Assembly (NCBI RefSeq): GCF_025154015.1
Contig: NZ_JAOAMV010000001.1
Location: 310,001 to 374,000 of the forward strand
Length of the DNA: 64,000 nt
Source: Tsuneonella litorea
GTDB taxonomy: Bacteria > Pseudomonadota > Alphaproteobacteria > Sphingomonadales > Sphingomonadaceae
Direction: 5' to 3'
Below the pieces are notes generated by a model. The model saw only the letters and a program-made list of their open reading frames with translations. It ran no database searches and was not told where the DNA came from. Positions within the stretch are counted from its first letter, which is position 1, and every line of letters begins with the position of its first letter. The position numbers and the translations under genes were made by a program. Shown one piece after another: positions 30,305 to 34,329 of this stretch.

Positions 30305-30736
30305 ATGACCATCGTGAAATCGGGCAGCGCAAGGTACGAAGGCCTCGGCAAGGAAGGCAAGGGACACGTCAGCACCCAGTCGGGCGCTCTCGACGACCAG
30401 CCCTACGGCTTCCAGACCCGCTTCGAGGACAGGCCCGGCACCAACCCCGAGGAACTGGTCGCCGCCGCGCACGCGGCGTGCTTCACGATGGCGCTCAGCT
30501 TTGCGCTGGCCCGGGCCGGGCACGGTGACGGCACGCTCGAAACGACGGCGAAGGTCAGCCTCGACAAGGAGGGCGACGCGTTCACCATCACACGCTCGGA
30601 CCTGGTCCTCACGGGCACTGTATTGGGCATCGACGAAGCGGAGTTCATGCGGCTGGCCAACGAGGCCAAGGCGAACTGCCCGGTGTCGAAACTGCTGAAC
30701 GCCGAGATCACCCTCGAGGCCACCTTCGGCGGCTAG
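30305..30736 (+). CDS. osmC: OsmC family peroxiredoxin
   Basis: 143 residues. Two redox cysteines: AAHAACFTMALSFA and KANCPVSKLLNAEITLEA. This is the OsmC type. ATG at 30305 follows AAGGAGACG. With the TauE gene it may form an operon responding to sulfur or peroxide stress (inferred). Its stop overlaps the convergent VTT gene by 4 bp. Confidence 0.9.
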   Translation: MTIVKSGSARYEGLGKEGKGHVSTQSGALDDQPYGFQTRFEDRPGTNPEELVAAAHAACFTMALSFALARAGHGDGTLETTAKVSLDKEGDAFTITRSDLVLTGTVLGIDEAEFMRLANEAKANCPVSKLLNAEITLEATFGG

Positions 30737-31371
30737 GCCGGCTGCACCGCCTCGACCGAGGAGCACGCGTCGGTCTTCGCCGGATCGCCGCCGGAAAGCA
30801 GGGTGATCGCGAGGAAGCCGCCGACGACCAGCACCACGAAGCCAATTGTCACGAGGCCGAGGTACTTGTCGATGAAGCGCTTGATCGGCGCGCCGAACAG
30901 GCGGAACAGCACGCCCACGATCATGAAGCTGATCGACCGGCTGACCACGCTTGCCAGGATAAAGGGGATCAGCGGCATCGCGATGAAGCCGGCGGTGATC
31001 GTCAGCAGCTTGAACGGGATCGGTGTGGCGCCCTTGATCATGATGATCTCGGCGCCGTACTCGCGCAGGTAGCAGGCCGCCTTGGGAAAGCTATCGGTCA
31101 GGCCCAGCGCGCCCAGCAACTGCTGGCCCACAGTGTCGTAAAGCGCATAGCCGATCGCATAGCCGAGCAATCCGCCGGCGACCGATGCGATCGTGGCGAC
31201 GACTGCAAAGCGAATCGCCTTCTTCGGTTCGGCGAGGCACATCAGGCCGAGCAGGGGATGCGGCGGGATCGGGAAGAAGCTGGCCTCCACGAAGGAAAAC
31301 AGCGCGAGCCATCCGACGGCATGGCGATGCGCCGCCTTTTCCATCGTCCAATCGTAAAGCTTGCGAAGCAT
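30733..31371 (-). CDS. VTT/DedA-related (YqaA-type) membrane protein
   Basis: 212 residues with the VTT pattern: FSFVEASFFPIPPHPLLGLMCLAEPKKA, GGLLGYAIGYALYDTVGQQLL, IIMIKGATPIPFKLLTITAGF and SRSISFMIVGVLFRLFG. Distant DedA relatives of this kind are linked to lipid scrambling in the membrane. ATG start. Downstream 230 bp before the GTA remnant holds no other gene. Confidence 0.85.
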   Translation of the reverse strand: MLRKLYDWTMEKAAHRHAVGWLALFSFVEASFFPIPPHPLLGLMCLAEPKKAIRFAVVATIASVAGGLLGYAIGYALYDTVGQQLLGALGLTDSFPKAACYLREYGAEIIMIKGATPIPFKLLTITAGFIAMPLIPFILASVVSRSISFMIVGVLFRLFGAPIKRFIDKYLGLVTIGFVVLVVGGFLAITLLSGGDPAKTDACSSVEAVQPA

Positions 31372-31601: not shown

Positions 31602-32102
31602 ATGGCAGCTCGCGGGAAGCAGGCGGCGGGGGCGAAGAAGAAGGCGCCGCCCAGGGCTCGGTGGCAGGCCGATTTCCTCGCCGCGCTCGCTCACAGTTCG
31701 AACGTCACCCTCGCCGCGCAGAAGGCCGGGGTCGACGTCAGCACCGTCTACCGCTCGCGGCGCGCGGAACCCGACTTCTACCGCCGCTGGCAGGAGGCGC
31801 TGGCGGAAGGATACGACAACCTCGAGATGGACCTGCTCCACCGCCTGCGGATCGGCCAGCTCGAAGGCGGCAAGGCCCAGGCCCGGCGCAAGTTCGACAA
31901 TGCGATCGCATTTCGCCTGCTGACCGCCCACCGCGAGGCGGTCGGCCGGCAAAAGGCGCTGCGCGCGAGCGAGGACGAGGACGCGATCATCGCCTCGATC
32001 ACCGAAAAGCTCGAGAAGATGAAGGAGCGCCAGGAGGCCGCACGGGCGATGGCCGAGGAAGACAGCGCGTACCAGGCTGGCGCCCCGGCGGACGACGAAT
32101 GA
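31602..32102 (+). CDS. GTA/phage small terminase-like DNA-binding protein
   Basis: 166 residues with a helix-turn-helix: SNVTLAAQKAGVDVSTVYRSRRAEPDFYRRWQEAL (about 28-62), then a coiled-coil stretch AIIASITEKLEKMKERQEAARAMAEED at the C-terminus. This pattern occurs in small terminase subunits. The following gene, a large terminase, begins inside its stop (ATGA). Together they look like the first genes of a gene transfer agent cluster; the rest is lost. Confidence 0.7.
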   Translation: MAARGKQAAGAKKKAPPRARWQADFLAALAHSSNVTLAAQKAGVDVSTVYRSRRAEPDFYRRWQEALAEGYDNLEMDLLHRLRIGQLEGGKAQARRKFDNAIAFRLLTAHREAVGRQKALRASEDEDAIIASITEKLEKMKERQEAARAMAEEDSAYQAGAPADDE

Positions 32103-32557
32103 CGGCGCGCACCGACCTTCTGCGCGCACTGCTCGACTGTCCGCAGGAGGACCGGCCCGCGGAACTCCGCAAACTGAGCGAGATCGAGCAGCGCGAACTG
32201 CGCTATTTCTGGAAGCTGTGGGCGCGGCCCGACCAGCTGCCCCCGCCGGGCGACTGGCAGACCTGGCTGATCAGCGCGGGTCGCGGCTTCGGCAAGACGC
32301 GCGCGGGCGCCGAATGGGTCCGCGAATACGCCCGCCGCCACCCGGATTGCCGGATCGCGCTCGTCGGCGCCTCGCTCGGCGAAGCGCGCAGCGTGATGGT
32401 CGAGGGCGAGAGCGGGCTGCTCGCGGTCTGCCCGCCGGAAAACCTGCCGGTGTTCGAACCGTCGCTGAAACGGCTCAGTTGGGGCAACGGGGCGCAGGCC
32501 TTTCTCTACTCGGCCGCCGAACCGGAGTCGCTGCGCGGACCCCAGCATCACATCGCT
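32099..32557 (+). pseudogene. Terminase large subunit, 3'-truncated (GTA remnant)
   Basis: The first about 153 codons of a terminase large subunit. TWLISAGRGFGKTRAGAEWVREYARRHPD includes Walker A, and the reading stays terminase-like to LRGPQHHIA at about 32557. An intact gene would continue with the WCDE Walker B region and nuclease domain; instead the sequence switches to DUF2793 in another frame. The rest of the ORF to 32797 is nonsense. Start ATG overlaps the previous gene by 4 nt. Confidence 0.85.
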
Positions 32558-32957
32558 CGCAGGCCAGGCCCAGAAGGAATTTTTCGTCAACGCCGCCCTG
32601 TCGCGCTGCGACGCCCTGGTGCACCCGGCTGTCGAAGGCGAAGCGGGCGCGCCGCCCATCGATCCCCCGGAGGGCGAATGCTGGCTTGTCGCGGCGGGCG
32701 CCACCGGCGCGTTCGCCGGCCAGGAAGGCAACCTTGCGATCAGGCAGTCCGGCGAATGGGTCTTCGTGGCAGCGCGAGACGGCACGCGGATCTATGACAG
32801 GGCGACGGGACAATTTCTGCTATTCAATGGAGCCTGGCAGCGCGAGAGCGCCATCGCCGCGCCCGCCGGCGGACAGACGATCGATACGGAGGCGAGAGCG
32901 GCGATCGGCGAATTGATAGGGGCCCTCACCCGCTGCGGAATTCTTCCCCGGAATTGA
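32555..32957 (+). pseudogene. DUF2793 GTA tail-fibre-type gene, 5'-truncated
   Basis: In a second frame the DNA encodes SLAGQAQKEFFVNAALSRC and then a DUF2793 protein (ECWLVAAGATGAFAGQEGNL, WVFVAARDGTRIYD), which ends normally at 32957. DUF2793 genes stand at or near the 3' end of alphaproteobacterial GTA clusters (rcc00171 in Rhodobacter). There is no start codon with a plausible 5' end: the only ATG/GTG-type start in frame is 32619, inside the domain. The region from terminase to this gene, many kilobases in a complete cluster, is missing. Confidence 0.8.
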
Positions 32958-33118: not shown

Positions 33119-33156
33119 ATGGCTCAAATTCGCTAAAATGGCTCAAATTCGCTAAA
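33119..33156 (+). repeat. Two perfect 19-bp tandem repeats, each a mini-ORF
   Basis: ATGGCTCAAATTCGCTAAA occurs twice head to tail (33119-33137 and 33138-33156). Each copy reads Met-Ala-Gln-Ile-Arg-stop. No strong ribosome-binding site precedes either. The second copy ends 15 bp before the OmpA start codon, just before its AAAAAGGGG site, so the unit lies in the leader of that mRNA. Confidence 0.85.
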
Positions 33157-33171
33157 AAGGGGAATTACATA

Positions 33172-34329
33172 ATGCGGAAACTCGTCATTGGCATGGCGCT
33201 GGCATCGACTGCCATCGCTTCGCCTGCACTCGCGCGGGACGGCGCTTGGTACGTCGAACTCGATGGCGGACCGATGATCGTCCAGGACATCGACTTCGAT
33301 GTCGCGGGCGCCTCCAACGTTGTCACGGTGGACAGCCACACTGGCTACGACTTCGGCGGCATCGTCGGATACGACTTCGGCCCCTTCCGCCTCGAAGCGG
33401 AAGCCGGTTACCGCGGTGCTGACCTCAACTCGATTGGCAGTTCCACGCGTGTGCTGCCGACCGTTGGCGGGGCCCCAGCTCCTGTCGGCACCTATGCGGC
33501 CGACGGTGACGCGAGCGTCCTGAGCTTCATGCTCAACGGCCTCGTCGATTTCGGCCCGGACGACGGGATGCAGGGCTTCGTCGGCGGCGGCGCGGGTGTC
33601 GCCCGCACCAAGTTCGATGGCGCGACCATCGACACCACCGGCCCGGGCTTCCTCGACGATTCGGACAGCGGCTTCGCCTGGCAGGTTCTCGCCGGTGTGC
33701 GTGCTCCGCTGACCGACACGATCGACGTCGGCCTGAAGTATCGCTTCTTCAACACCTCGGGCCTCGATCTCGTGGACAGCCGCGGCCGCTCGGTCGAAGG
33801 CAAGTGGCAGTCGCACTCGCTGCTCGGCACCATCGGGTTCAACTTCGGCGGCGCACCCGCCCCGATGCAGACCTGCTGGGACGGCACCCAGCTGCCCATG
33901 GACGCGACCTGCCCGGCTCGCCCGGCTCCGCCGCCGCCGCCGCCGCCGCCGCCGCCCCCGCCGGTTGCTGCACCGGTGTGCAACAAGGGCCCGTACATCG
34001 TGTTCTTCGAATGGGACAAGTCGGACATCACTCCGGAAGCTGCGACCATTCTCAACAACGCGGTTTCGGCCTACTCGAACTGCGGAAGCGCTGCGGTCAT
34101 GCTGGCCGGCCACGCGGACCGTTCGGGTTCGGCATCGTACAATGTCGGCCTTTCGCAGCGCCGCGCGGATGCGGTGAAGGCCTACATGACGGCTCGTGGC
34201 GTTCCGGACACCCGGATCTCGACCGAAGCATTCGGCGAATCGCAGCCGCGCGTCCCGACCGCGGACGGTGTTCGCGAACTCCAGAACCGCCGGGTGGAAA
34301 TCACCTACGGTCCGGGCTCGGGCATGTAA
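33172..34329 (+). CDS. OmpA-family outer-membrane protein
   Basis: 385 residues: signal peptide ending ALARDG (about 1-22), an eight-strand beta-barrel (about 23-235), a hinge with a 12-proline run coded by CCG repeats at 33928-33963, and the OmpA C-terminal peptidoglycan-binding domain from about 270 with YIVFFEWDKSDIT, LAGHADRSGSASYNVGLSQRRADAVKAYM and NRRVEITYG. A rho-independent terminator follows. Strong AAAAAGGGG site; possibly one of the most abundant proteins here. Confidence 0.92.
   Translation: MRKLVIGMALASTAIASPALARDGAWYVELDGGPMIVQDIDFDVAGASNVVTVDSHTGYDFGGIVGYDFGPFRLEAEAGYRGADLNSIGSSTRVLPTVGGAPAPVGTYAADGDASVLSFMLNGLVDFGPDDGMQGFVGGGAGVARTKFDGATIDTTGPGFLDDSDSGFAWQVLAGVRAPLTDTIDVGLKYRFFNTSGLDLVDSRGRSVEGKWQSHSLLGTIGFNFGGAPAPMQTCWDGTQLPMDATCPARPAPPPPPPPPPPPPVAAPVCNKGPYIVFFEWDKSDITPEAATILNNAVSAYSNCGSAAVMLAGHADRSGSASYNVGLSQRRADAVKAYMTARGVPDTRISTEAFGESQPRVPTADGVRELQNRRVEITYGPGSGM

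Follow-up and report, generated by a model that had tools for sequence, protein, structure and literature searches.

The window analyzed in this study, a stretch of 64,000 nucleotides covering positions 310,001-374,000 of contig C11 in the 3.03-Mb, 32-contig genome of Tsuneonella litorea (G000), almost certainly holds the deletion scar of a gene transfer agent (GTA) cluster, in which the N-terminal part of the terminase large subunit gene is joined directly to a gene of the DUF2793 family. The same junction was read in 32 genomes of 17 genera. We consider recurrence of the deletion with this one junction highly probable, and its best reading, held with about even confidence, is a recurrent site-specific deletion occurring in situ.

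The scar locus is bounded on the left by a minus-strand gene (positions 30733-31371) and on the right by a plus-strand gene (33172-34329), which, from a reading of the ORFs, we take to encode a DedA/YqaA-like membrane protein and an outer-membrane (OmpA-like) protein, respectively. Between them, all on the plus strand, lie three coding segments. The first (31602-32102) encodes a TerS-like small terminase of 166 aa (PHROG 4044 "terminase small subunit", 4e-13), sharing 74% identity over 133 residues with TerS of the intact congener G006. As the preliminary description had stated, it leads into a terminase large subunit gene, truncated here and designated TerL' (32099-32556), which starts with the ATG at 32099, matches Pfam Terminase_6N at residues 58-152 (7.4e-8) and contains a Walker-A-like motif, AGRGFGKT. 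TerL' comprises 152 codons and, up to 32556, the initial two bases (GC) of codon 153, in good agreement with the initial estimate that the gene is intact to about codon 153. It is orthologous to the intact TerL of G002, G004, G006 and G009. In the named collection, TerL' is closest to sequences from an Erythrobacter MAG (70% identity), from a Pseudomonadota MAG of unplaced affiliation (65%) and from Novosphingobium piscinae (62%), which suggests that the family studied is that of the sphingomonads.

A two-base joint, TC (32557-32558, DUF2793-like in this genome), separates TerL' from the third segment, DUF2793 (32559-32957), which runs in the +1 frame relative to TerL', while the TerL' frame continues out of register as far as 32797. 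The switch of frame was therefore correctly described earlier. The segment is, however, not just the 3' part of DUF2793 but nearly the whole domain, since the match to PF10983 (1.9e-25) spans profile positions 1-86 of 87. Comparison with intact relatives revealed that about 20 N-terminal codons are absent, and in those relatives these codons are situated approximately 13 kb downstream of TerL. According to the accessible text of PMC10883770, DUF2793 is the tail-fibre family of RcGTA. No RNA families were found at the scar locus. Just upstream of the outer-membrane protein gene, at 33120-33157, a 19-base unit, TGGCTCAAATTCGCTAAAA, is present in two tandem copies.

Among the ORFs between TerL' and the next gene, portal, protease, capsid and tail genes are all absent, as had been noticed from the sequence alone. 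The locus thus consists of TerS, TerL' and DUF2793 only, lacking the full TerL, portal and capsid of a functional RcGTA-like cluster; it occupies the same place and has the same end genes as complete clusters, of which it is a remnant. Approximately 13 kb were lost: TerL is missing its C-terminal two thirds, DUF2793 its first codons, and the head and tail genes are gone. A genome-wide search for the lost parts was confined to the TerL C-terminus, the large tail gene and the HK97 capsid, with portal and other tail genes covered at the locus. At an E-value of 0.001, neither the C-terminal part of TerL nor the large tail gene gave a match anywhere in the genome, in which TerL' is also the single Terminase_6N match. 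The sole HK97 capsid match is located at C11:4450-5289, about 337 kb from the scar, beside resolvase-like and integrase-like ORFs, and relocation of the middle of the cluster was therefore rejected. The capsid gene belongs to the region C11:1-13400, outside the window, whose ORFs were read as resolvase-like, integrase-like and primase-like and which may represent a small integrated element with a lone HK97 capsid gene (Pfam).

The junction lies in the interior of a 714,674-base contig and is also present in congener assemblies of few contigs (G001, 2 contigs; G010, 9 contigs), which makes an assembly join very unlikely. Reading of the ORFs of the window revealed no IS-like ORF beside the junction, in line with the preliminary description, and neither an IS nor a long direct repeat was seen in the window; a repeat scan covered 12 kb of G006 that did not extend to its DUF2793 end.

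To place the scar in its genus, 11 genomes were compared (G000 and 10 congeners), in each of which either half of the locus gives one match. Four of the congeners are intact, one is partly deleted, one is differently deleted and four have the same junction. In the intact genomes (G002, G004, G006 and G009), TerS, TerL, portal, protease, capsid, tail genes and DUF2793 follow in this order at one chromosomal place, and the two halves are 12.8 to 13.9 kb apart, with the TerL C-terminus, portal and capsid between them. In G003 the distance is 5.5 kb, and portal and capsid are missing. The halves are adjacent in G000, G001, G005, G007, G008 and G010. G008 has a different, in-frame junction; the spacing in the five remaining scars is identical, namely 13 bases from the TerL codons CAR CAY to the DUF2793 codons GGN CAR. 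G010 lacks TerS as well as the first half of TerL'. The DedA gene is found within about 4 kb to the left of the locus in 10 of the 11 genomes (the contig of G007 ends there), the outer-membrane protein gene adjoins DUF2793 in all 11, and the gene order of the right flank in the genus is Omp-MFS-QueC-HslO-ArgF-ArgD. Relatives thus keep the cluster between the same two neighbors, which bears out the proposal that a single internal deletion left both cluster ends.

The same adjacency in relatives, if in a normal frame, had been named in advance as an observation that would speak against a deletion. The adjacency was indeed found, with an equally broken frame, and sister genomes hold approximately 13 kb between the halves; the deletion claim therefore stands, as a recurrent and junction-exact one. 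It did not stand as a single event in this lineage, since the junction is shared by 5 of the 11 genomes of the genus and by 27 genomes of 16 other genera. In a tree of six flanking genes, scars and intact genomes are interleaved. The scar label has to change five times, each time because of well supported branches, and one ancestral deletion in the genus, i.e., a single scar clade, was rejected (p-AU 9.5e-46). Regain of the whole cluster in G009 is disfavoured because both of its arms match the scar genome G005 at 97% up to the junction. Local identity over several kb is uneven, and a clear import tract is not apparent.

The distribution of the junction in the family was examined by two protein scans of 249 genomes from 96 genera, which were not directed at the junction and whose adjacency counts are to be read as "at least". 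TerL' was detected in 192 and DUF2793 in 219 of the 249 genomes, DUF2793 being the more often retained. Among the matches listed, 13 adjacent pairs from outside the genus were read base by base, and every one of them shows this junction, 11 with a spacing of 13. Scans of individual genera yielded three more adjacent pairs: G256 shares the junction, and in G259 and G261 it is eroded or different. Altogether, 19 of the 22 adjacent pairs located by protein share the junction, the exceptions being G008, G259 and G261. G173, located via DUF2793 alone, has it as well; a second deletion between TerS and TerL', ending about 15 bases to the left of the scar junction, took nearly all of TerL' and the end of TerS. 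A DNA search of 397 genomes with a scar as the query, which is biased toward this junction, contributed 12 further scars, so that 20 of the 32 remain without it.

The spacing is 13 nt in 30 of the 32 scars and 14 nt (one extra base) in the other two (G082 and G238), and in some genera the anchor on the DUF2793 side is GCN CAR. In 13 of the 17 scar genera, a genome retaining both sites kilobases apart was also read. None of the 32 scars has an element at the junction. The contigs of G149 (ends of C48 and C28) and G241 (end of C23 and start of C19), which belong to one genus, stop at the junction or no more than 3 bases from it on either side, and the TerL C-terminus and the large tail gene were not found in either; the gap may represent an unassembled repeat, an element or a mixture.

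The crossover was resolved most closely by comparing scars with close relatives that retain both sites, with identities given to the left and right of the junction. For G005 versus G009 (97%/97% over 400 bases per side), the sequence passes from TerL GC|CTGG to DUF2793 TAT|ACCCC, and for G200 versus G078 (94%/88%) the crossover point is identical, GC|CTGG and TGT|TCGCC, with zero shared bases in both cases. For G011 versus G257 (88%/80%) the crossover keeps the register and is shifted rightward by 1-3 bases, with the C of TerL kept plus a shared TG; a two-base word fits here, and a later one-base change could also account for the shift. In the set of 23 genomes retaining both sites (which includes G003 and G196, with partial clusters), microhomology at the crossover is 0 bases in 19 (G009 and G078 included) and 1, 1, 3 and 3 in the others, which argues against microhomology-mediated deletion. 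Compared in register over 6 to 40 bases, the two sites are no more alike than usual: the median share of random TerL/DUF2793 position pairs with at least the same similarity is 0.44 to 0.87.

The joint itself was scored in 31 scars (G173 was left out). To its left the sequence is that of TerL, with GC in 28 of the 31 and a one-base difference in three, and to its right that of DUF2793. The joint dinucleotides are TC (14), CT (8), TT (5), AC (2), GT (1) and CC (1). In other genomes the corresponding bases are TC, TT, AT, AC and once CG at the DUF2793 site, and CT, GT, AT and once TT at the TerL site. Hence, the joints TC, TT and AC occur at the DUF2793 site of other genomes, while CT and GT, present in 9 of the 31 scars, occur at the TerL site and never at the DUF2793 site. 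The joint bases can thus come from either parent, as a two-base staggered exchange would leave them, although conversion from intact alleles could mimic such a mixture. The possibility that the junction creates a new in-frame ATG was dropped, as only some scars have ATG at this triplet, the others having ACG or another sequence.

Under the reading that we prefer, recurrent site-specific deletion, repeated exchanges in situ would join a fixed point in TerL (...CAGCAYAGYCAYGC|NN in most genomes) to a fixed point in DUF2793 (NN|GCCGGNCAG in most), the strands being cut two bases apart and the two central bases then being drawn from either parent. A two-base stagger of the cuts is the geometry of serine recombinases and of some RNA-guided or nuclease systems. 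Loss of GTA production would be the likely consequence, leaving a non-producer or "cheater", and in some lineages TerS and TerL' would then have eroded. The recurrent, base-exact junction in a fixed register, with one spacing in 30 of 32 scars and no significant linkage between scars, is what such recombination should produce. More tentatively, and with somewhat less than even confidence, we suggest an unrecognised, possibly programmed site-specific reaction with a two-base staggered core, which would excise the GTA structural genes and thereby switch producer lineages, or a fraction of the cells, to non-producers.

The resemblance to serine-recombinase-type or other two-base-staggered deletion lies in the fixed register and in central bases from either partner. 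The scars differ from it in that no recognisable paired sites were found and that no recombinase was seen among the ORFs of the G002 cluster, which were read from TerS to about position 20 kb of its stretch, short of the DUF2793 end. No excised circle or mixed population was seen in the assembled sequences. The TerL and DUF2793 sites are dissimilar and have no common motif, and the third codon positions vary at both, which would be odd for a protein reading DNA. Furthermore, the central dinucleotide is usually not the same at both sites, and to our knowledge normal serine recombinases do not accept mismatched central bases.

The order from TerS to DUF2793 in intact congeners is that of RcGTA-like clusters, of which the scar keeps only the two ends, fused at the recurrent base-exact junction. 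GTA loss itself is already known: in the accessible part of PMC10883770, pseudogenization and loss of GTAs in Alphaproteobacteria are described as repeated in many lineages and are read as take-over by cheaters combined with deletion bias. That text, as far as available, treats loss in general and does not mention a fixed junction such as the one found here. In the literature searched, including the accessible parts of PMC10883770, PMC9836097 and PMC8682789 and few subscription papers, no report of a recurrent TerL-DUF2793 junction was found. It is an open question how cooperative GTAs that kill their makers persist against non-producers. A deletion at the same base in 17 genera provides a countable marker of the change from producer to non-producer, which is open to PCR testing wherever a strain has kept its cluster intact. 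If the site-specific reaction is real, it would constitute a new control or defence mechanism inactivating GTAs; if an old scar allele is kept by recombination, it would point to a long-lived polymorphism of producers and cheaters.

The latter is the main rival explanation, to which we assign a real, though clearly minor, chance: homologous recombination would have carried one or a few old deletion alleles from species to species, or maintained them alongside the intact allele. A short scar fragment can erase 13 kb, while restoration of 13 kb requires a long one, as in chromosomal curing by transformation, and conversion from intact alleles would refresh both arms up to the junction until only the register remains. 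An exact register would then need no recognition of DNA, and the mixed joint bases would be conversion overshoot. In the available text of PMC4774983 and PMC12637031, chromosomal curing resembles the present case in that a long insert could give way to a short deletion allele, and the curing of mobile elements by transformation appears in the former as an established idea; the difference is that no donor tract was detected around the junctions studied here.

Left arms do recombine. The TerL' arms of G001, G003 and G007 (genus g1), G238 (g66) and G312 (g78) are 81-89% alike across these three genera, and their DUF2793 genes are not; the left arm of scar G238 is 88% identical to that of G007 from another genus, which indicates movement of left arms between species. 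Likewise, TerS and TerL' of G000 are closest to those of G006 (as is DedA, tied with G003), while its flanking genes group it instead with G002, G004 and G010. In bases 2-22 of DUF2793, the scars are also slightly more alike, a weak and non-significant excess (p 0.08).

Against an old allele, scar-scar excess identity was significant neither between genera near the junction (lowest p 0.076; 18 scars, 25 others) nor along either arm when 400 bases were compared (p 0.33 and 0.69; 66 rows per arm). No shared imported tract, as left by horizontal spread of one allele, was detected, with the reservation that gene conversion could hide one. In genera g2 and g37, the DUF2793 gene beside the junction is of the genus-own type (x-Ala-Gln instead of x-Gly-Gln) from the second codon on. 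Moreover, the fragments do not resemble those of an ancient dead allele: 30 of the 32 scars have an open TerL' frame over 125 codons and 31 have an open DUF2793 frame over 110 codons, and the ratio of changes at codon positions 1+2 to those at position 3 is 0.84 between scars compared to 0.79 in other pairs. The open frames and the hardly relaxed codon-position bias suggest that the deletions are young or the fragments still constrained. Finally, an old allele would have had to persist, or to be passed on, while 17 genera diverged.

It is improbable that microhomology or slippage produced independent deletions that coincide by chance or because selection spares this junction alone, and this explanation is already disfavoured. 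Other deletions in the family do look like such ordinary events. In comparison with the ORFs of G002, TerL of G111 is joined to a tail gene, apparently via the shared 7-base word TGCCTGG, and the capsid gene of G206 is joined to DUF2793 at similar sequences. The more frequent retention of DUF2793 than of TerL (219 vs 192 of 249 genomes) also fits this explanation. The recurrent junction, however, has little or no microhomology and a similarity in register no better than random, selection at the protein level cannot fix the register to the base, and a single spacing is found in 30 of 32 scars. Partial clusters or other ends were observed in G003, G012, G025, G051, G070, G075, G087, G111, G129, G132, G168, G194, G206, G225 and G261, and those inspected at base level (some of them, including G168) have no single junction in common. 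Ordinary loss thus coexists with one greatly over-represented junction. G051, G087, G111, G206 and G225 carry deletion alleles with other ends, some of which apparently arose via short shared words.

The open frames and the codon-position bias would also suit a domesticated, functional TerS-TerL'-DUF2793 mini-locus (e.g., a packaging decoy), made once and selected, with the intact genomes having regained the cluster. This is quite improbable: G010 and G173 have lost large parts of TerS and TerL', a stop is present in the DUF2793 frame of G082, a regain of 13-14 kb would be needed many times, and the match of G009 and G078 to their scar sisters extends as far as the junction.

A mobile element that targeted both points, removed the cluster and then departed without trace would explain why the contigs of G149 and G241 break at the junction as if at an unassembled repeat, yet it is very improbable, since none is present at the junction in 32 of 32 scars read. 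Five short contigs, out of 20 contig starts sampled blindly from G149 and G241, were inspected over their first 3 kb; their ORFs were permease, sugar-metabolism, peptidase and adhesin-like ones or had no match.

A phage or plasmid carrier of the fused copy was rejected, as the TerL' matches on 12 viral contigs and 11 genome contigs all continue into the C-terminal part of TerL. DUF2793 matches were found in 163 phage records (phages were searched with DUF2793) and in 100 plasmid records, and TerL' matches in 13 plasmid records. Among all 13 TerL' matches and the 15 of the 100 DUF2793 matches listed for plasmids, both sequences occur together only on the Sphingomonas plasmid NZ_CP155752, where they are approximately 12 kb apart.
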